64,000 nucleotides of DNA from Chamaesiphon minutus PCC 6605 (GTDB lineage Bacteria; Cyanobacteriota; Cyanobacteriia; Cyanobacteriales; Chamaesiphonaceae). Below are positions 20,583 to 43,838 of the stretch, piece after piece (position 1 is the first letter of the stretch; each line of letters starts with the position of its first letter). Both the position numbers and the translations under genes were made by a program. Where the stretch lies: NCBI RefSeq assembly GCF_000317145.1, contig NC_019697.1, forward strand, positions 5,941,889 to 6,005,888, written 5' to 3'. A model generated the notes under the pieces. The model did not search any database and was not told the DNA's origin. It saw only the letters and a program-made list of their open reading frames with translations.

Positions 20583-20996
20583 TTAAGTTAGCAGCGCATT
20601 AAAGATATAGCCGATGCTAATAATACCAATTGTCATCAGCCCGATAAAGATGGCTAATAGTTGTGGGCGCAATACTTTTTTGAGAATTACCATTTCTGGC
20701 AAAGATAATGCTGTTACCGACATCGTGAAAGCCAAGACAGTACCCATCGACATTCCTTTATTTACCAAAGCTTCAGTAATCGGCACTACCCCTGCAATGT
20801 TCGCATAGAGGGGTCCGCCTAAAATTACGGCGATTGGTACTGCAAAAGGATTATTTGCACCTGCATATCGGATGACAAAATCTGTCGGTACATACCCATG
20901 AATTCCTGCCCCGATCGCAATTCCAGCCACCACATACAGCCCGGAAAATTTCACTCGATTGATATCTTTCTTGATCGAATCTTTGCTGCCAAGTTA
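20583..20996 (-). pseudogene. Permease C-terminal part (frameshifted from upstream half)
   Basis: Encodes four hydrophobic helices of a UPF0718-type permease: 'SGLYVVAGIAIGAGIHGYVP', 'FAVPIAVILGGPLYANIAGVVP', 'TVLAFTMSVTALSLPEMVILKKVL', 'IFIGLMTIGIISIGYIFNAL'. The matching upstream half is in another frame. The switch is near 20985-21000, where the thioredoxin-permease frame reads 'FDQERYQSS' and this frame begins 'DSIKKDINRVKFSG'. A one-base indel explains it. A GTG at 20954 could start a partial product. Confidence 0.75.
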
Positions 20997-21459
20997 ATGT
21001 CGCCAACAATAAATTTTCTTCATCATTTGATGACAGCATTTGTCGTGTTTTTCGTAGTTCCCATACAAATGGCTCCACCCATTTTTCTAATTTTAGGAGT
21101 CCGATAATATATCCAGAGAAGATCGCCAAGCCCACCCCAAAACTAATGTAGATGAGCATTACCTTTAGTCCAAATAATCCCCACAACAGAATCATGGCAA
21201 CTTCATTTACCATTGGTGCTGCCTGCAATAGTAGTTGAATTTGCTCTGGACTCATTACTTGTCCTTTGCTCACAACTTTGCCATCGATCGTCATTGCTGG
21301 TGTAGCCATCACCCCACGCATCGCAATTTCTACAGGATCGGTAATGTGTCGAACTTCAGCCGTTAAATTAAGATTTGCCAAAGCTGCTTTCGCATTTACT
21401 TCTAACTGTTGGCACTTTTTGCAGCCTGTACCCAAGATTTCAATCTCGATCGGATTCAT
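20851..21459 (-). pseudogene. Thioredoxin-like protein fused to a permease fragment
   Basis: Residues 1 to about 78 form a small redox-active disulfide (thioredoxin/glutaredoxin-like) domain with the CxxC motif in LGTGCKKCQQLE and the cis-Pro in ATPAMTIDG. After 'LLLQAA' the frame continues without a stop into the middle of a permease ('PMVNEVAMILLWGLFGLKV' and 'IYISFGVGLAIFSGYIIGLLKLEKWVEPFVWELRKT'). It then loses frame near residue 155 and ends in a missense tail. In other bacteria these are two neighbouring genes (permease plus thioredoxin) linked to metal or arsenic resistance. Here a deletion joined them and a later frameshift broke the permease. Confidence 0.75.
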
Positions 21460-22974: not shown

Positions 22975-23475
22975 TCACATCAGATGAGGTGGATTTATTT
23001 CCTTATTACTACTGACGCCATTAGTCATCCTTCCGCTCGTCTGATAGTGAGAAATTCGATAGATGCGGCTTACATCTGCACGTCCCCACGTATCGATCCA
23101 ATTGCGATTGATAGCCGGAGTAAGTGAGGGATTCTGTGCTTTAATCAGTTGCATAATTCGATTCTCGTTCCGAGAGGCTACGCCAACGATTTCCGATCGA
23201 TCTGTAATCCGCTCGGCCCGACCCTTCACCACTACACTTCGCCAATGTAGCGATCCAGTTACTTCTTCAACCTGTAGGCAAATTTCTGGATTCACATCCA
23301 TGCCATAGGTCTTCATCCCTTCGGTTGTAAATAGATAAATATCCGCACCTTCGAGATAATAATGCATTGGAATCACGGAGGGTTTTCCTTCGTAGATGAA
23401 GCTGAGATGACCGTACCCTACTTTGTGGAGCAATTCACGGATTTCTTTGGCACTCATTTCATCGATATTTAGCAT
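22975..23475 (-). CDS. Pyridoxamine 5'-phosphate oxidase-like FMN-binding split-barrel protein
   Basis: A 166-residue split-barrel protein: '[37 protein letters not shown]' and 'ICLQVEEVTGSLHWRSVVVKGRAERI'. It is close to the domain fused to the C-terminus of FtsH at 39434-41881 (shared 'MHYYL', '[10 protein letters not shown]', 'LHWRSV', 'NPxLxPAINR'), so the two are paralogues. The family binds flavin or F420/heme, and some are oxidative-stress proteins. The substrate is unknown. It sits right of the IS982 element and no direct-repeat promoter site was found upstream. Confidence 0.85.
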   Translation of the reverse strand: MLNIDEMSAKEIRELLHKVGYGHLSFIYEGKPSVIPMHYYLEGADIYLFTTEGMKTYGMDVNPEICLQVEEVTGSLHWRSVVVKGRAERITDRSEIVGVASRNENRIMQLIKAQNPSLTPAINRNWIDTWGRADVSRIYRISHYQTSGRMTNGVSSNKEINPPHLM

Positions 23476-28798: not shown

Positions 28799-29785
28799 CT
28801 ACTGGCTGCATACCTGCGATAGCGTTCTTAAAAGATGCTCTACGGTAAAAGGCTTTTTCAAGAATGCCATCACACCACATTCTTGAAGCGTTTGAGTTAT
28901 TTGTTCGTTGGCTACCAAGCCACTCATGGCAATAATTCTGACATTGGGATTGAGTTTGTAGATCGTCCGAACGGTAGTCAAAATATCTAATGAGGGCATC
29001 ATCAGATCGAGGAGAATTACATCGACGTCATGTTTACGTTCGGCATACGTGGCGATCGCCTCGATCCCATCGCTAGCAGTTAATATTCGATAATTATAAG
29101 TTTCTAATGTGGTACTAGTAATCGATCGAATCGATGTTTCATCATCCACAATCAGGATTAGTTCGTTACTGCCGCTTTCTAACTTTGTAATCGGTTGCGG
29201 TTGAATTTCATAGGTATCAGTTGCTGGTAAATATATTTTAAAACACGTTCCTTTACCGACCTCGCTATCAACCTTAATAAATCCATCATGATTTTTGATG
29301 ATTTTCATTGTCGTAGATAATCCCAGCCCAGTACCTTTACCAATATCTTTGGTAGTAAAAAACGGATCGAAAATCCGATCGATTAGCTCTGGTGGGATGC
29401 CCATGCCAGTATCGGTAACAGAGATTGCGATATAGTCGCCAGGTCGTGCATCCAAATGAATTTTGGCAGAGTTTTCATCAATCTTTAGATTCTCAGTGCT
29501 GACTGTGAGGATGCCGCCATTGGGCATGGCATCGCGAGCATTGACACACAGGTTCATCAATACTTGATGGATGAGAGTACTATCTGCTTCGATCTTTGCT
29601 AAACTATCGGCGTAATTGAAGATAGTTTCAATATTTTTAGGAAAAGTTTGTCGAACGATCCGTTGAATTTCGGCGATAACATCGCGAACTTGAATAGCGG
29701 TGTTTTTTCCTTCTGCTCCTCGTGAAAATGAGATAATTTGTGTAACTAAATCTACACCTCGACGAGTACTCTCACTGAGAATTTT
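28799..29785 (-). pseudogene. Hybrid histidine kinase, 3' segment (HATPase + receiver)
   Basis: This is the 3' third of a kinase gene split by two insertion sequences. The open frame runs from the ISL3 border at 29785 through 'RRGVDLVTQIISFSRGAEGKN' and the HATPase motifs 'LMNLCVNARDAMPNGG' (N box), 'VTDTGMGIPPELIDRIFDPFFTT' and 'GKGTGLGLS'. It ends with a receiver domain: 'LILIVDDETSIR', phospho-Asp in 'VILLDLMMPS', Lys in 'FLKKPF'. An internal ATG at 29560 could start a fragment. The output domain is only a receiver, with no DNA-binding domain. Confidence 0.85.
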
Positions 29786-31223
29786 GGTTCTCCAGTACCT
29801 AATGTGCTAATTAAATGAGAATCGAGGCAGTACAAGAGAAAGAAAATAAAATAAATATGTCAAAACTGCTGACGAGGAGAGGAAAAGCAAGATAATGAAG
29901 AGAGGAAGAAATAGTAAGAAGAGCGGCGGGCAGGGCAAGTGGCAACAAAAAAGGAACTCAAGCTACTAACGGAGCTATTAGGAATAGAAGGAATGCGAGT
30001 AGAGTCGCAGCGACAATATGAAGGAATAGGCATCATCTTACAGGTAGAAGCAATAAAGAAAGAAAGCAAATGCCATAGATGCGGAACGAAGAGTAGTAGC
30101 TTACATCAGAATAATAGATACATAGTAAAAGATTTGCCGTGGGGAGAGCAGCAAGTTCACCTAGAAATAAACAGAAGACAATTTAAATGTAAAAAATGTC
30201 AAAAACCATTTAGCGAACAACTAGAATTTGTTAAAGGCAGAAGAACATATACTTCAAGACTAGCTAAAAAAATCCTAGCAGAAGCACTAGAAGGAGATAT
30301 TCAGAGCGTAGCTAGAACAGGAGTAATGACGACAGCAGAAATAGAGAGAATAATTGAAGACGCAGCAGCAGAGCTAAACGGAGAAAAGCCAACGGATTTA
30401 AGAAAACTGGGAATAGATGAAATAGCAATGGTAAAAGGACAAGGAAAATATTGTGCAGTATTAGTAGATATAGAGCGAGGAAAATTATTAGCAATAATCG
30501 AAAGCAGAAAGAGTGAAGAAATAGAGAAAATCCTGAAAGGATGGGGGACAGAGGTACTGGAAAGGATCGAAGAAGTCAGCATAGACTTATGGAAAGGGTA
30601 TAAAAGCTTAGCGATAGAAGTGATGCCTAATGCTCAAGTAGTAGCAGACAGATTTCATGTAACAGCGCAAATAAATAGTGAGTTAGATAAGCTGAGAAAA
30701 CAAGAAAAAAGAGCGATAGAGGCTAAACTTAAATCCGCAAAGACATTAGAGCAAAAGAATGAATACACTCGGCAATTGGCAGTAATAAAATCGAGTAAAT
30801 ATGCGCTGCTAAAAAATGAAAAAGAGTTAAGAGAGGAGAAAGAACAAGAGAAGCTCAAGCAGGTTAGAGAAGAATTTGCCAACATTAGGGCAGCACATCT
30901 ACTCAAAGAAAAATGGAGAGAGATAATGGAAAAAACAACATCGTGGATGAGAGGACTATTGAAAATTAGACATTGGCTGGTAAGAGCCAAGCAGCATTTG
31001 CCAAATAGTTGTGGCACAATCTCGCGATGGTTAACAGAGATAGTTGCTTACTTTGATGAGCGAACTACTAGTGGTGTAGTTGAGGGAATTAATAATAAGA
31101 TTAAGCTCATCAAGCGTACTGCTTATGGCTTCACTAATTTCAACAACTTCCGAAACAGATGCTTGCTAACTTGGAGATTCAATTATTGATTTAGCACATT
31201 AGGTACTGGAGAACCAGAATTTT
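29778..31223 (+). mobile_element. ISL3-family insertion sequence with 8-bp target duplication AGAATTTT
   Basis: The ends are GGTTCTCCAGTACCTAATGT (from 29786) and the perfect inverted copy (to 31215). The same 8 bp, AGAATTTT, flank both sides (29778-29785, 31216-31223). The 1430-bp element sits inside the histidine kinase gene. Removing it with one duplication copy restores the kinase frame (...LLKIL/SESTRRG...), so insertion was recent and precise. Confidence 0.93.
29939..31189 (+). CDS. ISL3-family transposase
   Basis: A 416-residue transposase. The N-terminal zinc-finger motif is 'CHRCGTKSSSLH' with 'QFKCKKCQKPFSEQ'. The catalytic DDE region has 'LGIDEIAMVKGQGKYCAVLVD', 'EVSIDLWKGYKSLA' and 'QVVADRFHVTAQI', and the C-terminal 'EGINNKIKLIKRTAYGFTNFNNFRNRCLL' box holds the Glu. 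The first codon is GTG at 29939. It is intact and Lys/Glu-rich, with lower GC than the neighbours, as expected for a mobile gene. Confidence 0.92.
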   Translation: MATKKELKLLTELLGIEGMRVESQRQYEGIGIILQVEAIKKESKCHRCGTKSSSLHQNNRYIVKDLPWGEQQVHLEINRRQFKCKKCQKPFSEQLEFVKGRRTYTSRLAKKILAEALEGDIQSVARTGVMTTAEIERIIEDAAAELNGEKPTDLRKLGIDEIAMVKGQGKYCAVLVDIERGKLLAIIESRKSEEIEKILKGWGTEVLERIEEVSIDLWKGYKSLAIEVMPNAQVVADRFHVTAQINSELDKLRKQEKRAIEAKLKSAKTLEQKNEYTRQLAVIKSSKYALLKNEKELREEKEQEKLKQVREEFANIRAAHLLKEKWREIMEKTTSWMRGLLKIRHWLVRAKQHLPNSCGTISRWLTEIVAYFDERTTSGVVEGINNKIKLIKRTAYGFTNFNNFRNRCLLTWRFNY

Positions 31224-32556
31224 TAATAAACTTTGAGTGCGCCCGTCGAGGTTGGGAAACTGGAGCGGGAGAACTTCGGCAATACCCAAAATTGGTGTGA
31301 AAATATTATTGAGATCGTGAGCGATTCCACTAGCAAGAGTGCCTAAACTTTCTAACCTTTGGGCGGATAAAAATTGTGATTCTAATTGTTTTTTCTCTGT
31401 GATATCAGTATCTACAGTTAGAATCGATTTAGCATTGCCAGCGGTATCTCGTACCAAGGCGCGACGGCTGATGATACTTAGAGGTTGCCCTGTGGCGGTA
31501 ACTTTCGTCAATTCCCCTTCCCACTTACCTGTGGTTAAAACGATCTCCATTATCTCTGGAAGTCGAGCTAAAGAGTCGGGACTGTCAAACTGCCGCGCAT
31601 CCCGACGGATCGCGTCATCTGCTGGCCAGCCATATAATCGTTCGGCTCCTTTATTCCAAAATAAAATTTGGTAGTTGAGATCGTAGACACACATTGCATC
31701 GGGCGCAATGTCGAGCAAACTTGCTTGCTCGTGCATAATTTGCTCCGATAGTTTGCGCTTAGTAATATCGTGAACGATCGTCAAAACCTGACTGACGCTG
31801 CCATCGGGATGGTAGGCAAAATTCTTAGATCGTAAATAATGCCACCGCCATTCTCCGTTGAAATGGCGCATTCGGTATTCAAATTCTTTAATTTCACCAT
31901 ATTCAAGACCGACGATTGCATTTACAGGGTTTGGTTCGTCGGGATGATGGAGGATGTCTACAACCCGATCGCCCATCCGCTCGATTTCTGCGGTTGGATA
32001 GCCGAGTAATTCGCCAAGCGAATAATTGGTATAGACGATCCGTCGTTCGTCTAAACTATAAATACTGATTCGGTCGGGTATAGTATCAAGAATCCGATCG
32101 GTAAAATCCTGACTGTTTTGTCGCATCAAAGTGATTTCTTCATGTCCGGCTTCGCCGCGCTGGCGTTCGCTCGGATCGACGACCACCGCTCGACTGATTA
32201 GATAGTTCCCTTCATCGTCGCGGACGATTGTCGCGCTCAAACTGACAGGGCAGATACTACCATCTTTGCGTACCATCTCAAGTTCTAGATCTTTAATAAA
32301 ACCCCGTTCCTGAAATTTCACACAGTTGTCGCGAAGCTTTCGTTTACTTTCTGGTGTAAGTAAATCGGGAAAGCAAATCTTCCCCACAACTTCATCGTAC
32401 TCGTAACCCAACATGTTTAGTTCGGATTGGTTGATGTATGAATAGATACTATGGAGATCGAGTGCGTGATGTCCACAGGGAGCGAGATCGCAAATTTTTT
32501 GAAATTCCTCATTTTGAAATTGAAGAGCTAGAGTTAATACATCTAAATTATTACAA
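31216..32556 (-). pseudogene. Hybrid histidine kinase, middle segment (PAS-PAS-PAS-HisKA)
   Basis: Carries three PAS/PAC units: 'KICDLAPCGHHALDL...', 'ILDTIPDRISIYSLDERRIVYTN' and 'LLDIAPDAMCVYDLNYQILFWN'. The dimerisation/phosphoacceptor helix 'LESLGTLASGIAHDLNNIF' follows, with the His of AHDLNN. It lies between the two insertions: the 5' end is replaced by ISAs1 sequence (giving a false 'MRSPCC' start near 32570) and the 3' end runs into ISL3. The PAS domains suggest sensing of light, redox or small ligands. Reconstructed without the insertions, the protein is 781 residues. Confidence 0.85.
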
Positions 32557-34051
32557 CAGGGTGAACGCACTTAAATCTTATATTATTAAAAACACTTAGA
32601 AACTAGATGTAAATTTGATTCATCAAAGATGTGAAATCTATACCCGTCGATAGCTTTAGCTAATTAATTGTGTTAAGTTGATTTGGAACTAATATCATGT
32701 AAAATGAAGCTGAAGCCTAAGCATAGTATCGCAGAACACTTTGACGACATAGAAGACATTAGGATTGAACGTGGAAAAAAACATAAACTAATCGACATCA
32801 TCACGATCTCCATTTGTGCTGTAGTATGTGGGGCGGACGGATGGATAGATATAGAAATGTATGGTATAGCCAGAAAAAAATGGTTAGAAAAGTTCCTAGA
32901 ACTACCGAATGGAATCCCATCTCATGATACATTTGCTAGAGTATTTTCACAAATTAATCCTGATGAATTTAATAAATCATTCCTGAGTTGGATTAAAGGA
33001 ATAAGTAAAATAACCGCAGGAGAAATAATTGCCTTTGATGGAAAACAATCTCGAAACTCAGGAGATGAAAAGAATGGTCAAGGTGTAATTAATACAGTCA
33101 GTGCCTGGGCTGCAAGTAATAGATTAGTATTAGGTCAAAAGAAAGTAGAAGGAAAATCTAATGAAATCACAGCACTTCCCGAACTGATTCAAATCTTGGA
33201 TTTAGCAGGATGTATCGTTACCATCGACGCAATGGGATGTCAAAGAGAAATAGTCAAAAAAATCGTCGAAAAAGATGCAGATTATGTAATTGCTGTAAAA
33301 AAGAATCAACCGACCTTGTACAAACAAGTAAAGCAGCTATTTAAACAAGCAATTGAAACTCAGGGAAAAGACCTCAACCTGAGTAGCTTCAACAGTAGAG
33401 AGATGAATAGAGGTAGAGAAGAAATTCGTAATTATTTAATGATAACAGATGTTGCGGAGCAAATAGATCCACTGCAAAAATGGAAAAAGTTAACTAGTAT
33501 TGGCATGGTAGAATCAGTTCGAGTTGTCGGCGGAAAGACGAGTGTAGAAACTCGTTATTTTATCAGTAGTCTAGAGAGCGATGCTCAAAAATTAGCAGAG
33601 GGAATTAGAAGTCATTGGTCGATAGAAAATTCTCTTCACTGGGTGCTTGATGTTGCTTTTAAAGAAGATGATAGTCGAATTAGGAAAGATAATGCTCCAG
33701 CTAATTTTGCGATTTTACGACATATAGCAGTTAACATAATTAGTGAAAATAAAAGTCGAAAGTTAAGTGTTAGAAGTAAGAGATTCTTGGCGACACTTGA
33801 CGAAGAATATTCAACTGAACTTTTAGAAGCTATTTTGTAATTTATTTGCACTAATTAATCTCGGCTTGACTAATGAGTTGGTCGAGCTTTCTGCTACACT
33901 AAATTAAATTAATCGGATCTCATGTTTGATTTTAGTTTCAATTGGCATTGTAATAAGTGCAATTAGTTAGTAAGTACGATTGAGTTAGCTATTCTAGTTT
34001 TGATCGATCGAATTACACCCGATTTTGATGCGTTCACCCTGATTATTACAA
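32547..34051 (+). mobile_element. ISAs1-family insertion sequence with 10-bp target duplication ATTATTACAA
   Basis: The ends are CAGGGTGAACGCA (from 32557) and TGCGTTCACCCTG (to 34041), a perfect 13-bp inverted repeat. ATTATTACAA flanks both sides (32547-32556, 34042-34051). The 1485-bp element is inserted in codon 11 of the histidine kinase gene. The perfect duplication shows the target order is unchanged. Confidence 0.95.
32704..33840 (+). CDS. ISAs1-family transposase
   Basis: A 378-residue transposase from ATG 32704. It has the H-repeat type N-terminus 'SIAEHFDDIEDIRIERGKKHKLIDIITISICAVVCGADGW' and the catalytic motifs 'IIAFDGKQSRNS', 'IVTIDAMGCQREIVKKI' and 'RSHWSIENSLHWVLDVAFKEDDSRIRKDNAPAN'. 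It appears intact. Confidence 0.93.
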   Translation: MKLKPKHSIAEHFDDIEDIRIERGKKHKLIDIITISICAVVCGADGWIDIEMYGIARKKWLEKFLELPNGIPSHDTFARVFSQINPDEFNKSFLSWIKGISKITAGEIIAFDGKQSRNSGDEKNGQGVINTVSAWAASNRLVLGQKKVEGKSNEITALPELIQILDLAGCIVTIDAMGCQREIVKKIVEKDADYVIAVKKNQPTLYKQVKQLFKQAIETQGKDLNLSSFNSREMNRGREEIRNYLMITDVAEQIDPLQKWKKLTSIGMVESVRVVGGKTSVETRYFISSLESDAQKLAEGIRSHWSIENSLHWVLDVAFKEDDSRIRKDNAPANFAILRHIAVNIISENKSRKLSVRSKRFLATLDEEYSTELLEAIL

Positions 34052-34444: not shown

Positions 34445-35989
34445 CTACGCGCGATCGCTACTTCGTCGTCTACGCAGCCACATTTTACGGAGTTCTTCCG
34501 CACCCAACAGCAGCGGTGGGCAGAGTAGCACCAGCAACCAATGTCCTGGTGCCAACGAAGCTGTCGCAAAGACGTAGCGAAATGGGGGAAAGTCGATAAA
34601 GGCGAATAAGGCGACACATTCAAAGCAGATCCCAAACCATAACAGGCTATTATTCGATCGAGACTGGCGAAATGCCGATCGCAAATCAGAGCGACAGGCG
34701 AATAAATTACCCACCTGACAAGCAACAATAACGGCTAAAGTCATCGTGGTAGATTGTCGATAGATAGCTGTTACCGCTGGCTCGGCAGTGTGCGCGAGAA
34801 TGGCGGGTGTGACTTGCTGGAGATCGGCTAAGGAGTAGCCATATCCGCTCCAAACTAGGAAGAATCCTGTCATTGATAATACTGCTTCGATCGCGCCGAG
34901 AAATCCGTAAGCGCGGAGTAATAAGGCACCGTTGAGCAAAGACTCCTTGCGGGGGCGGGGTGGGCGTTCCATGATACCTGGTTCGGGTGACTCCGCTCCC
35001 AGTGCGAGGGCGGGCACCATATCCGTACCCAAATCCACGGCGAGAATCTGTAAAATCGTTAGAGCGGGTGGGATTTTGAGAGCAACCATTCCCAGAAATG
35101 GGACGATTTCGGGGACGTTGGAGGCGAGGATATAGGTCATGAATTTACGGATATTTTGGTAGATCGATCGACCTTGCTCGATCGCGACTACAATCGTGGC
35201 AAAATTATCATCAGTTAGGACGATATCGGCGGCTTCCCGCGCCACATCTGTGCCGTTTAACCCCATTGCAATCCCAATATTTGCGGCACGCAGGGCGGGG
35301 GCATCATTCACACCGTCGCCTGTAACTGCGACTACTTCGCCGATGTCTTTATATGCTTGCACGAGGCGGAGTTTATGTTCTGGCGACATCCGCGCAAATA
35401 CCAAGCCCCCACGATATTTCAAAGTTTGTCGCAGTTGGGCGGCGGATAATTGCCCCATGTTTTCTCCGGTAACGACGCGGACTTTTTCGCCCACTACCAA
35501 GCCGATATTCCTCGCAATTGCTTCGGCTGTCAAGCCATAATCGCCAGTCACCATCGTCACTTTAATCCCCGCAGTATGACAGCGTTCGATCGCACGTTTG
35601 ACTTCGGGGCGCGGCGGATCGAACATCGCTACTAAACCGACGAAAATTAGGTTTTGCTCCAGCTCCTGATCGGGGAGATCGAGCAATTCTTGGCTACCCT
35701 TCCGCGCTGCTAGCCCCAAGACTCGAAACCCTTGACAGGCTAGATTGTCATTCGCCTGAACGACTTGCTGCCACACCGCTTGGCTTAACTCCTGCGCTAC
35801 TCCATCATGCAGAATCTCATGACAATGTTTCAATACTTCCAGTGGAGCACCCTTGGTAAAAGCCAGATAGGGCAACTCATCCACCCATAAATCCGCAGCT
35901 TGCCAATTCAACACCACCGTCATCATCCGGCGGCGAGAATCAAACGGAATTTCTCGCAAGCGTGGTAATTGCTGTTGGCGTTGTGCCAA
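34445..35989 (-). pseudogene. P2-type cation ATPase, C-terminal part (frameshifted)
   Basis: Encodes the rest of the nucleotide-binding domain (FTKGAPLEVLKHC), the hinge 'MVTGDYGLTAEAIARNIG' and 'VAVTGDGVNDAPALRAANIGIAMG', then helices M5-M10 with 'NVPEIVPFLGMV' and 'ILAVDLGTDMVPALALGAE'. The DLGTDMVPA box is typical of Na,K-type (P2C) pumps. The first residues of this frame (AAAKAGLNLAQRQQQLPRL) continue the domain begun in the upstream frame. The two overlap near 35990-36060, where one base has been lost or gained. Confidence 0.85.
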
Positions 35990-35991
35990 AT

Positions 35992-37353
35992 TTAATCCCG
36001 CTTTGGCAGCCGCAACGAGTAATGCCGCTTCAGTCGGATCGCCAATTTCTTGCCACCGACTGGGGCTTCGAGATGAACGAGACGGGCATTGGAACAGAGG
36101 GCAGAGCCTAAGAGTAAGAGATTGGTTCGCGTGACAATGCCCCCATCAGCCGGAAGATCGATCTTCCCGCTAGTCGGATCGTAACCCGCGCCAGCTATCT
36201 CGATGAGACTATTAAATTTCGCTCGATCGGCTGCTAAATCGGGCGGTAGCCAAAGATAACGCACCGTCATCTCATTTTTGGTCAAAGTCCCCGTCTTGTC
36301 CGTACAGATGACGGTAGTGGCACTGAGAGTTTCCACCGCTGAAAGCCGCCGCACCAAGGCATTCTGTCGCGCCATCCGTTTTACACCCAGAGCCAACGCC
36401 AACGTCACAGTGGGTAGCAATCCTTCCGGTACATTGGCAACGATAATCCCGATCGCAAAAATGAAACTCTCGGTAATATCCAGCCCAATTAGAAAATAAC
36501 TGAGCAAAAACACCGTCGCGCCCATACCGATCGCGATCGCGGTAATAATCCGCACAATTCGGGTAATCTGGACTTCTAACGTACTGGGTTCGCGCTTTAC
36601 CTCTGTCGTCAAGTGCGCCACCTGTCCAAATTCCGTCTGTGTACCCGTAGCATATACCACCGCCACCGCCCGCCCCCCTGCCACCGTCGATCCAGCTAAA
36701 ACGAGGTTGGCGATCTCCGCCGGATTTACCCGCTCTTGTAATGGCTGTTCGCCCTGTCTGAGCAAGGTTTTACCACCGCGAATCGGTACAGTTTCCCGCA
36801 GACTCACTGGTTCAGCATTCCGCGCGACAGGCAAAGATTCACCCGTCATCACCGATACATCGATCGATAAACTTTCCGCAGATACCAATCGCGCATCCGC
36901 CGAAATGCGATCGCCTTCTTCCAGTTGCATCACATCGCCGCGCACCAATTCCCGCGCCGGAATCTGTTGGAGTTGCCCATTTCGCTCCACCTTTACCTGC
37001 ATCGGTAATACTTTTTTCAAAGCAGCTAGAGCTTGCTCGGCTTGAAACTCTTGCCAGAAGCTAAAAATCGCGTTAATCCAAATTACCGCCCAAATTGCCC
37101 AACCGAGTTCGGGGGTGCGCGAAATAAACGCTAAAGTCCCTGCCACCCAGAGCAGCAAAGCCATAAAGTGGGTCAACTGATCGGTAAACCTCAGCCACAG
37201 GGGACGCTGGGCAGGTTCGGGCAATTCATTAGCACCGAATTGTTGCAATCTACTGGCAGCTTCATCCTCAGACAAGCCGCTGGCGGCACTGTCTAGTGCT
37301 TCATAGACTGATTCGACGGGTAATGCCCAAATCGGTTGATGAGATGATGCCAT
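35992..37353 (-). pseudogene. P2-type cation ATPase, N-terminal part (frameshifted)
   Basis: From ATG 37353 (AGGATTGGCAT before it): N-terminal cation-ATPase domain 'GLSEDEAASRLQQFGANELPEP', M1-M2, the actuator motif 'SVMTGESLPVARN', the M4 motif 'NVPEGLLPTVTLALALGVKRMA' and the phosphorylation site 'ICTDKTGTLTKNEM'. It then reads 'EAPVGGKKLAIRLKRHYSL' and stops, whereas the -1 frame continues 'WQEIGDPTEAALLVAA', the expected KGDPTE-like motif. A single indel near 36050 separates the two halves. A direct-repeat promoter site lies 87 nt upstream of the start. Confidence 0.88.
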
Positions 37354-37422
37354 ATGCCAATCCTGTATTTTCCGATCTAGCTCAGTACCCAATTAGGAGG
37401 TTTTTTGGATACATTATCATAG

Positions 37423-38479: not shown

Positions 38480-39025
38480 TTACATCGTTACAGATGGAGT
38501 GGACACTGCTACGGATTTACCTGCTGCATTACTGACATCTTCAGCGGTGATGCGTCTGTTCGGACCAGTGCCGTGTAATGATTTGACGGTTATACCATAT
38601 TGCTGGGCTAATTTCCTCGCGTAGGGAGATACTAAGGGTCGCTCGCTTCTGAGGATTGTAAATGCGGGAGTTGCGGCAACTGCGGCGACGGGCGGAGGGG
38701 TGGGAGTTGTCGCGGGTGTAACCGCAGGTAGGGCTGTCGCTGGATATTTGTCGTTTGCTTGCTGTTTGGCGATCTCGATCTCCGCTTCGGTTTCGGCAAT
38801 TAGGGCGATTACCGAGCCGGAAGGTGCGAACTCACCAGCAGGGACGAGAATCGCTGCAATATAGCCTTCAGAAAAGGTTTCGATCTCTATATCAGCCTTG
38901 TCGGATTCTACCACGGCAACGATTTCACCTCTTGCGACCTTATCGCCAGGAGATTTCAGCCAGGAGACAATCTTGATTGGAGCCTCATAGTCTAAAACAC
39001 CGATGAAAACTTCACGTATTGCCAT
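38480..39025 (-). CDS. Lipoyl plus E3-binding domain protein (E2 acyltransferase without catalytic domain)
   Basis: A 181-residue protein. The lipoyl domain at 1-80 has the lipoylation motif 'AVVESDKADIEIETFSEGYI'. A Pro/Ala/Thr-rich swinging-arm linker covers about 95-125, and a peripheral-subunit-binding domain covers about 127-165 ('LVSPYARKLAQQYGITVKSLHGTGPNRRITAEDV'). The C-terminal acetyltransferase domain of dihydrolipoamide acyltransferase (about 230 residues) is absent and the frame ends cleanly at TAA. It is either a truncated gene or a stand-alone lipoyl carrier that docks E3. The usual N-terminal MPALSSTM is replaced by IGVLDYEAP. Confidence 0.75.
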   Translation of the reverse strand: MAIREVFIGVLDYEAPIKIVSWLKSPGDKVARGEIVAVVESDKADIEIETFSEGYIAAILVPAGEFAPSGSVIALIAETEAEIEIAKQQANDKYPATALPAVTPATTPTPPPVAAVAATPAFTILRSERPLVSPYARKLAQQYGITVKSLHGTGPNRRITAEDVSNAAGKSVAVSTPSVTM

Positions 39026-39433: not shown

Positions 39434-41881
39434 TCATCCGATTAACTGCCTGCTGCTGACACCATCGGTCGTGCGTCCGGTCATCTCGCTTGGCTCGATC
39501 TGATAGATCGTCACTACCTGCGCTCGTCCCCAGGCATCAGTCCAAGTGCGGTTGATGGCAGGTGAAAGGGTGGGATTGTGTTGTTTGACGATCTCTCGCA
39601 CCCGCTCGATTTCCTCGCGATCTTTGAGCTGTTTGGCTGTGCCGCTGACGATGACGCTGCGCCAATGTAGCGGATCGTCAAATACTTCTTCGACCTGAAG
39701 ACAAACCTCTGAGTTTCGATCGATCGCCTGGGTTTTCATCCCTTCAGTGGTAAACAGATAAATATGCGGATCTCGACCCGAATCATCGAGGTAATAATGC
39801 ATCGGCATCACATAGGGTTTGCCTTCATAATTAAAACCCAAATGACCGTAACCAACTCGCATTAATACTTTGGCGATCTCATCCCGTCCCATTTCGTCGA
39901 TATCTAACATAGTTATGCTCCTAACGTGTAAATGTTTGTAATTAAAACCATTTCGGCTCACAGAGATCGATTCCTCAGCTTTTGGATCGGTTAAAATTTC
40001 TCCAGTTTGCAGCCAGTTGGATAACAGCGGTGGTATTGCCACTCGATCGAGATAATCATGCAATTGTTGACCATCGAGAATTTCCCGTTCTAGTAATACT
40101 TGTGCCACCTCTTTTAGTAAGGTTTGATTGTGGGCGAGAATTGCGCCAGCGATGTGATGAGCATTGTCAATTAGGTGTTTAACCTCTCTGTCGATTTCAG
40201 ACTCTACTTCAGGACTGAGAGGACGACGGGGATTGCCCCAGCCGCCGAGAAATTGACTAGCTGACCTGTCGAAGGCCATCGGCCCCAGTTGTTTGCTCAT
40301 GCCATAAATCGTCACATAGCGATCGGCTAAATCGGTAGCTTTTTGGATATCATCGCTGGCTCCAGTCGAGACTTTGCCCATAATCAATTCTTCTGCCGAT
40401 CGACCGCCCAATAACATCGCAATCTGACCGCGCAATTCATCTTCCACCATCAAAAACCGATCTTCTTGGGGCAGTTGTAGGGTATAGCCCAGCGCAGCTA
40501 CCCCACGGGGGACGATCGAGATTTTTTCGATCGATCCCGATCCCGGCATCAGCGAACCGACGATCGCGTGACCGACTTCGTGGTAGGCTACTGTCTCTTT
40601 TTCGATCTCATTCAGGACGCGAGATTTCTTCTCTAGTCCGGTGAGGATGCGCTCGATCGCCTCTTCAAAGTCGGACATGGTAACGGCGACTCGATCGTGA
40701 CGTGCCGCTAATAGAGCAGCTTCGTTGACCAAATTTGCCAGATCTGCACCTGCAAATCCCGGTGTGCGGGCGGCTAATTTGAGCAAATCCACATCGTTCG
40801 ACATTTTGACATTGCGGGCGTGGACGAGCAAAATTGCCTGCCGACCGCTTTTATCTGGTCGATCGACGACGATCTGGCGATCGAACCGTCCGGGGCGCAG
40901 CAGGGCTGGATCGAGGACTTCGGGGCGGTTGGTTGCTGAGAGTAAAATCACGCCTGTATTAGACGCAAAACCATCCATTTCTGACAACAATTGGTTCAAT
41001 GTTTGTTCGCGTTCGTCATTCCCACCCATCGGGGAATTAGCACTAGAGCGGGATTTGCCCAGCGCATCCAATTCATCGATAAACACGATACAGGGAGCCT
41101 GCTGTTTGGCTTGCTCGAATAGTCCCCGCACTCTGGCCGCACCCACACCGACAAACATTTCGATAAATTCCGAGCCAGAAATACTAAAGAATGGCACCCC
41201 AGCTTCGCCCGCGATCGCTTTTGCCAACAGGGTTTTACCCGTCCCTGGCGGGCCTACCAAGAGTACCCCTTTGGGGATTTTGGCTCCTAATTTCACATAT
41301 TTATCGGCATGTTTGAGAAAATCGACAATTTCTTGTAGTTCGGCTTTGGCTTCATCGACCCCAGCCACATCCTCAAAAGTTACCCCAGTATCGCCTGCAA
41401 CATAGGTTCTGGCATTACTATTACCCATGCCCAATAGTCCCATCCCACCTTGTTTATCGGGAGCGATAAATTTCGACCACAGCGAGATAAACAGGATGGG
41501 GAAGATTACCCAACTTAAAATCGACCAAATCCCTGATAGGGGACTAGGTACGGTCACTGAATACTCTACCTGATGGGTGCGGAGAATTTTAGCCAGTTCG
41601 GGATCTTCGGCTAGTTTTCTAGTGACAAATATCTTCTGAGGGGCAGGATTGCTAGATTTGGCACCGGGAGTTGGTTTTAACTCATACTGAATTTCTTGGT
41701 TATCGATAGTCGCCTTGACTACTTGCCCAGATTCTACCTGTTGAATAAATTCGCTATAAGGCTGACGTGGATAGCCTTGACCCGACCATGCCAGCACGAT
41801 TAGCAGCCAAATTAGGAAGATAAAATTACCGGAAATTGGGAAGTTTGATGGGGCAGTTTTGCGCTTGTTGTCGATCGGCAT
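39434..41881 (-). CDS. ftsH: FtsH-type AAA+ metalloprotease fused to an FMN-binding split-barrel domain
   Basis: An 815-residue fusion. Residues about 20-140 are the two-helix membrane anchor with periplasmic loop. The AAA+ domain spans about 165-395 (Walker [14 protein letters not shown], Walker [15 protein letters not shown] with RPGRFDRQI). The zinc protease domain has HEVGH at about 439-443. The FtsH part ends near 635. After a 20-residue linker, residues 658-815 are a complete PNPOx-like domain, paralogous to the 22975-23475 protein. An AGGAG ribosome-binding site and an in-frame ATG (39910) precede that domain, so it may also be made separately. FtsH degrades damaged membrane proteins such as D1. 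Confidence 0.93.
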
Positions 41882-42686: not shown

Positions 42687-42729
42687 CGCTCGATGCCTAT
42701 TGCAACTAGATCGGACTCGATCGCGAAAG

Positions 42730-42761
42730 CCCTCACTGAGCCAAGCTAGGGTTGGTGAGGG
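42730..42761 (-). terminator. Hairpin downstream of the psbA-like gene
   Basis: CCCTCAC/GTGAGGG forms a 7-bp stem, 7 nt past the stop codon of the D1-like gene on the minus strand. There is no strong T-run; it is probably an attenuating terminator. Confidence 0.45.
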
Positions 42762-42767
42762 AGTGGA

Positions 42768-43334
42768 TTAGCCGACAGGGGGAGCCGTAGCTGCGGACAA
42801 AACTAACGGGAAGTTGTGAACATTGGGTGCGTGCATTCCCTGCAATCCCAAATTAGCGCGGTTAATCAGATCGGCATTGCTACGGATTAATTTGCCATGA
42901 CTATCGGCAAGCGAATGGTTGAAATTAAAACCATTGATGCCAAACGCCATCGTACTTACGCCCAAAGCGGCGAACCAAATCCCCACTGTCGGCAAGGCGA
43001 CGAGTAAGAAATGAAAAGCCCGATGGTTGCGACTGGCAAATCCGGGAATTAAGAGCCGACCGAGAAAACCGCTATGTCCGGCTAAGTAGTCATAGGTAGG
43101 ACGGGATTGCCCGAAATCATAGCCATGCTCGATCGGTTCATCCTCACTAGTCTCCCGAATCAGGGTCGATGTGACTAACGAACCATGTAGAGAACTCAAG
43201 AGTGCCCCACCAAATACACCCGCGACTCCCAACATGTGGAAGGGGTGCATCATAATATTATGGTCGCCCTGAAATGCCAGCATAAAGTGGAATGTCCCGG
43301 CAATCCCTAACGGCAAACCGTCAGCAAAACTACC
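42768..43334 (-). pseudogene. psbA: Rogue photosystem II D1 protein, C-terminal half (after in-frame stop)
   Basis: Same frame as the upstream half, directly after the TAA at 43335-43337. It begins [17 protein letters not shown] and ends [16 protein letters not shown]. In Synechocystis D1 numbering D170, H190, H198, H215, H272, S264, H332 and H337 are kept. Four manganese-cluster ligands are changed: E189 to Asp, E333 to Ala, D342 to Val and the C-terminal A344 to Ser. Such D1 variants are called rogue or sentinel D1 and assemble PSII that cannot evolve oxygen. A TTG at 43316 is a possible internal start. Confidence 0.85.
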
Positions 43335-43838
43335 TTAACCGATCGGATAAACTAACAGCACCGCAGTTGCTGCCGCTGCTGGAGCCGAAAATGCCACAGC
43401 AATCCACGGGCGAGCACCGAGCCGATAGCTCAGTTCCCATAACCGTCCTAAATAGCACCAAATGCCAATCAGGAAATGTAACACGACTAATTGATAAGGG
43501 CCGCCATTGTAGAGCCATTCATCGATCGAAGCCGCATCCCAAAGCGGGTAAAAATGTAACCCGATCGCCGCAGAAGTCGGCACGACGGCAGCGGTAATTA
43601 AGTTGTTACCAGCAAGTAATGCCCCCTCAATCGGGTCGCGGATGCCCTCCATATCGACTCCTGGGGCAGTAATAAAGGCAATGATAAAACAAGTGGTAGC
43701 GGTCAGTATGGTGGGAATCATCAGTACGCCAAACCAACCGATATACAGCCGATTGTCGGTGCTGGTAATCCATTGACGAAACCGCTCCCAAATACCAAAG
43801 CTATCCGATCCCAGACGAGTTTGAATTGTAGTACTCAT
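43335..43838 (-). pseudogene. psbA: Rogue photosystem II D1 protein, N-terminal half (premature stop)
   Basis: From ATG 43838 (ribosome-binding site GAGGAG): [10 protein letters not shown]..., 167 residues covering helices A to C and YZ (Y161 in LLVYPIG). It stops at the codon for conserved Gln165 (YPIG-stop-GSF instead of YPIGQGSF). A single CAA-to-TAA change explains the break; the rest of the protein follows in the same frame. Residues 130-131 are Leu-Trp, so the Gln-Asp pair associated with chlorophyll f synthase is absent. A consensus direct-repeat promoter lies 49 nt upstream. Confidence 0.88.

Follow-up and report, generated by a model that had tools for sequence, protein, structure and literature searches.

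Is a D1 gene that is broken by one stop codon, and open and conserved on both sides of it, dead, dying or simply misread? The question is raised by a 64,000-nucleotide stretch of the Chamaesiphon minutus PCC 6605 genome (the whole stretch analysed here, hereafter the window), which lies in a contig of 6,284,095 bases within an assembly of 3 contigs and 6.76 Mb. An earlier reading of the letters alone (the sequence-only reading) had placed the gene at 42768-43838; these coordinates are correct, and the strand, which it did not give, is minus. The frame, followed from 43838 to 42768, comprises 356 residues; it closes with a TAA and is interrupted once before that, also by a TAA. The internal stop does occupy the codon of the conserved Gln165, as had been claimed, and the remainder of the frame is open and conserved, with no further internal stop (Table 1). 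ORF numbering here equals D1 numbering plus 3, or plus 4 above approximately residue 250. Among the other aligned D1 rows that have Gln in this column (n = 61), the codon is CAA in 50 and CAG in 11. When the frame is read through the stop, it matches Photo_RC (Pfam) at E = 5.8e-83 and TIGR01151 psbA (NCBIfam) at E = 6.7e-173; the score of the latter, 574.4 bits, falls below the cut-off of 596.05, which suits an atypical D1. Other intact psbA copies were sought in the same genome, and three standard psbA genes are present, none of them with an internal stop, along with one psbD.

Table 1. Features of the rogue D1 locus, in window coordinates.
Feature	Position	Strand	Basis
Rogue/sentinel-type psbA (D1) gene with one in-frame stop	42768..43838	minus	ORF; Photo_RC/TIGR01151 matches; ligands; tree
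Internal TAA at codon 168, equal to D1 Gln165	43335..43337	minus	Reading frame; D1 alignment
N-terminal part of 167 codons that precedes the stop and extends past tyrosine Z	43338..43838	minus	Ortholog retained in G001
Open, conserved 3' half of 188 codons that follows the stop	42771..43334	minus	Orthologous stretch not found in G001
Terminator-like hairpin, CCCTCAC...GTGAGGG, behind the rogue D1 gene	42730..42761	minus	Weak

The hairpin behind the gene is weak, since shuffled sequence folds as well as the region does (z -0.11) and a clear T run is absent; as judged by eye, the nearest relative, genome G001, retains its 3' arm only.

What kind of D1 does this gene encode? In the alignment it retains Y161, D170, H190, H198, H215, H332 and H337, and H272 was seen to be retained when the alignments were inspected by eye. 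It carries the substitutions E189D, E333A, D342V and A344S, and each of these states, kept or altered, is as the sequence-only reading had listed it. At the C-terminus FPLDLA is replaced, so there is no LDLA processing site. In most of the Nostocales rows nearest to the gene, residue 189 is D or N, 333 is A, 342 is V or I and 344 is S; among the exceptions are two Calothrix rows with A189 and L342. Identity is 74-79% to the nearest named rogue relatives, with 76-78% for the best matches of the relatives scan, and 66-67% to the three standard psbA genes of its own genome. A tree of 40 rows splits standard from rogue D1 with support of 100/100 and places the gene in the rogue half, within a 19-row rogue set (97/96), where, with weaker support, it lies next to relatives from Nostoc, Anabaena and Fischerella. 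A clade of the gene with two of its own genome's standard copies is rejected (p-AU 8.6e-62); a looser test, in which the gene is grouped with all 11 standard rows, does not reach rejection at the 0.05 level (p-AU 0.076). Taken together, the ligand pattern, the identities and the tree support the class that had been proposed, i.e. a rogue/sentinel D1 (psbA4 or G2 type) that would be nearest to those of heterocystous cyanobacteria; aligned with psbA4-type genes and placed in a phylogeny, the gene groups with rogue and not with standard D1. If published knowledge is applied to this gene, a manganese cluster with such ligand changes probably could not assemble normally.

Does the nearest relative carry the same stop? 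The G001 ortholog is 92% identical to the gene over residues 1-166, and the adjoining DUF6544 gene shows that it sits at the same locus, yet it is broken in a different manner. The last homologous base matches window position 43341; after 27 intervening bases the homology is taken up again at 42716, downstream of the gene, so that the deletion starts some 6 bp or less from where the stop lies here. The G001 frame ends ...YPIYLW and then stops, giving a product of 169 residues. Could this deletion be an artefact of assembling psbA repeats? In draft genomes of the family, several psbA fragments do run into a contig edge in this region. The truncated G001 gene, however, is internal to a 10.8 kb contig without Ns and is joined to the correct downstream flank. 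A search of G001 for the orthologous 3' half elsewhere found none. Of the psbA copies of G001, the two full-length standard ones (a third is partial) were compared with the 180-base junction stretch, and on the coding strand they have no 9-mer in common with it. The lack of a 3' half elsewhere and of a common 9-mer at the junction makes an assembly mix-up unlikely, and we reject it. A TnpB-like gene (named by eye; L034, 5186-6025) is located just downstream of the truncated gene in G001.

How old, then, is the stop? Over the columns of a 63-row D1 set that do not vary among the other rows, the gene agrees at 47 of 47 in the N half and at 52 of 52 in the C half. Against a 50-row set of rogue D1s alone, its only private change is I118V, which lies in the N half. 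The ratio of its C-half to N-half distance, 1.25, is ordinary, ranking 36th in ascending order among 47 rogue rows that range from 0.95 to 1.38. Between this gene and G001 the N half has a dS of 0.44 and a dN/dS of 0.10; in 11 comparison pairs of intact genes (4 standard, 7 rogue) dN/dS of the same half runs from 0 to 0.14. When neutral change was simulated over the 188 codons past the stop, about 8 amino-acid changes resulted at a distance of 0.02; at a distance of 0.22 there were about 69, and the chance that the frame stayed free of another stop was 9%. By a rough hand calculation, (1-52/188)^9 is ~5%, so that about nine random changes are the most that can be allowed. That 52 of the 188 columns are untouched therefore limits the neutral time since the stop to roughly 0.02 or less; set against a dS of 0.44, the stop looks much younger than the divergence from G001, in which case each of the two genomes would have lost the gene independently. 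On this sequence comparison the break in the rogue D1 gene looks recent, and the G001 deletion is likewise recent, or else its short product is still selected. An ancestral stop in common with G001 was considered and rejected, the 3' half here being too well kept.

If the breaks are independent, why do they fall so close together? Two breaks within ~6 bp would be a 1-2% coincidence if break points were uniform over 1071 bp, a post hoc figure worked out by hand. A CGATCG site is present at the place of the break and may have served the G001 deletion; there are four CGATCG sites within the gene, and if any of them would do, the coincidence (again post hoc and by hand) rises to about 4-5%. Apart from such a site, the near-identical break codon in the two species stands as a coincidence at the level of a few percent.

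Rogue copies and internal stops were also looked for more widely. The family set comprises 9 genomes of the genus (this one included) and 2 of the sister genus, and no rogue copy was found in the 9 genomes other than this one and G001; some of these absences may be gaps, as the other genomes are 77-100% complete. From the other genomes 30 matches were examined, a count that leaves out eight weaker matches in the sister genus: 1 is rogue (G001) and 29 are 93-100% identical to standard D1 or to D2. Across loci L001-L083, tblastn found internal stops in L004 and L006 only, both of which are the gene described here, and none was found in 80 named loci. The cut-off of the relatives scan, 1e-168, corresponds to near full length, and the loci were mostly chosen as near full-length matches; the scan is accordingly biased against broken copies, and the frequency of broken rogue D1 genes elsewhere is not derivable from it. 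Seven rogue D1 genes (L064-L070) stop directly after D1 residue 343, with TAG in L065-L070 and TAA in L064, so that their C-terminus falls one residue before 344, where the processed protein usually ends. These seven had been flagged as possible recurrent in-frame stops in rogue D1s, an idea that we rejected: they are the normal ends of a shorter C-terminus.

We consider it probable that the rogue/sentinel D1 gene has just turned into a pseudogene in this strain and that a separate deletion removed its 3' half in G001. What speaks against a pseudogene is that both halves look constrained; the stop alone marks it. Might the TAA instead be a base-calling or assembly error, and the strain in possession of an intact, functional rogue D1? 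A single base would account for everything, the remaining frame is conserved as in intact genes, and the neighbouring P-type ATPase gene also has a lone frameshift between two well conserved parts. Nevertheless, the TAA is a substitution rather than a homopolymer indel, in a 3-contig assembly, the G001 copy is broken in another way, and the insertions and truncations nearby are not explained by single-base errors; we judge an error to be unlikely, though it is the foremost alternative. That the stop is read through or bypassed, with a little full-length rogue D1 being made, seems much less likely again, even though the 3' half is open and conserved. A search that scored 150 of the 320 first candidates gave 56 tRNA places, of which ARAGORN typed 52 with a clear sense anticodon and 1 with an unclear one (gt), the other 3 being weak and untyped; no suppressor tRNA is present among those typed, and none of them reads a stop. 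The three standard psbA genes, psbD and 7 of the 17 checked window genes terminate in TAA, no 3' half is left in G001 to read into, and no other D1 among L001-L083 and the 80 named loci has a stop at this place. On the same tRNA result, and because the genome's own three standard psbA genes and psbD end in TAA, we reject a recoding of TAA as Gln. Of the three accounts of the stop offered in the sequence-only reading, the recent break is thus the best supported, read-through has gained no support, and sequencing error keeps a small probability.

A further alternative is that a truncated D1 of the first helices and tyrosine Z, 167 residues long here and 169 in G001, is itself under selection in the two sister species, perhaps as a decoy or as a regulator of assembly or repair. 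Such selection would account for two independent lesions that cut the protein at almost one codon while its N half stayed constrained. The frame ends at nearly the same codon in both, their N halves have diverged under purifying selection (the dN/dS of 0.10 given above), both match the 47 invariant N-half columns, and the 62 bp upstream of the start codon are conserved from one to the other. Equal constraint, however, is what would be expected were both breaks recent, and the well kept 3' half here suggests a stop too young to be shared with G001. We know of no precedent for a truncated D1 that is selected, and we give this alternative very little credence. A split D1 made by reinitiation at TTG 43316 was also set aside, as no convincing start was seen by eye and that part is absent from G001.

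Is gene decay a feature of the surrounding DNA? The window holds six transposase genes, five within about 14-50 kb and the sixth at 60.5 kb. The P-type cation ATPase (34445-37392, minus) lies in two well conserved frames with a frameshift near 36.05 kb, which is another young lesion, or a sequencing error, near the D1 gene. An ArsP-type permease is in two frames, with a thioredoxin-like domain in frame with one part (20583-21459, minus), and a PAS-domain histidine kinase (28799-32570) is apparently interrupted by an ISL3-family transposase gene (29939-31189); truncated phosphoribosyltransferase and short-chain dehydrogenase genes are also found within the window. An FtsH-type protease (M41 + AAA; 39434-41881, minus) has a C-terminal pyridoxamine-phosphate-oxidase-like domain in the same frame, and a separate PNPOx-like protein is encoded at 22975-23475. 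Lipoyl and E3-binding domains (38480-39025, minus) occur without the catalytic domain of a 2-oxo acid dehydrogenase E2. When the window genes were compared with the rogue D1 loci of 12 relatives, no conserved neighbourhood was found beyond three kinds of match: a Usp gene beside the rogue gene in two of the 12 (L094, L097), a GerMN-like gene (41%) about 6 kb away in one (L092), and generic kinase-domain matches of 28-39% in five.

How could the gene have come and gone? It was perhaps acquired from a heterocystous cyanobacterium. While intact, a rogue D1 would replace normal D1 in the dark, yielding a photosystem II whose manganese cluster does not work. The lesion would most simply be a C-to-T transition that turned the Gln165 codon from CAA into TAA. 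A product cut after residue 164 would then comprise only the first transmembrane helices and tyrosine Z, and would be without D170, E189, H190, H198, H215, H272 and the QB site. From what is established on D1, a protein lacking such parts would be expected to assemble no reaction centre and to be broken down, in effect a null product. G001 would have lost its gene separately, by deletion of the 3' half. A search for nifD at E 0.001 gave no match in this genome or in G001, nor any match over the cut-off in the 9 genomes of the genus. That the sentinel D1 is being lost here agrees with its being dispensable when nitrogen fixation is not involved, a link that we infer. We read the locus as two independent, recent losses of a gene that would have been dispensable, in a lineage without detected nifD and in a transposon-rich stretch.

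What does the locus mean for the field? It offers a natural experiment on a protein of debated role, i.e. a sentinel D1 that was apparently lost twice in a lineage in which nifD was not found. The apparent double loss fits the mild effects of psbA4 deletion in Cyanothece that are described in PMC9640542. As a practical matter, the gene is not to be counted as a working fourth D1 of this strain. In titles and abstract openings of the literature on rogue/sentinel D1, psbA pseudogenes and Chamaesiphon (including C. minutus PCC 6605) there is nothing on this gene, and Chamaesiphon is absent from the main text of the opened papers, as far as those texts were available. It looks like a known kind of gene that is freshly dead or dying, an ordinary gene loss in progress.

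How does it compare with the D1 systems already described? With standard D1, as represented by the genome's own three psbA genes, it has the Photo_RC family in common, and it differs in that their manganese ligand set is full and its own incomplete. Like ChlF (the super-rogue D1), it lacks several manganese ligands and has D189, which is common in ChlF also according to the accessible part of PMC10535343; unlike ChlF, whose signature is given there as Q127/D128, it has L127/G128, and the QD motif is absent. The sequence-only reading had set the gene apart from ChlF by Leu-Trp at residues 130-131; its conclusion holds on L127/G128, but 130-131 are not the diagnostic residues in that part of the source. 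The closest likeness is to the rogue/sentinel D1 proteins (psbA4 of Cyanothece 51142; G2 D1), in which E189, E333, D342 and A344 are altered and tyrosine Z and H190 are kept. That class has about 65% identity to conventional D1 in the available portion of PMC4582080, which is alike to the identity found here, and PsbA4, in the available portion of PMC9640542, is likewise without an LDLA C-terminus. The gene differs from a working rogue/sentinel D1 in that its genome has no detected nifD and in that its own reading frame, with an in-frame stop at Gln165, is not intact.
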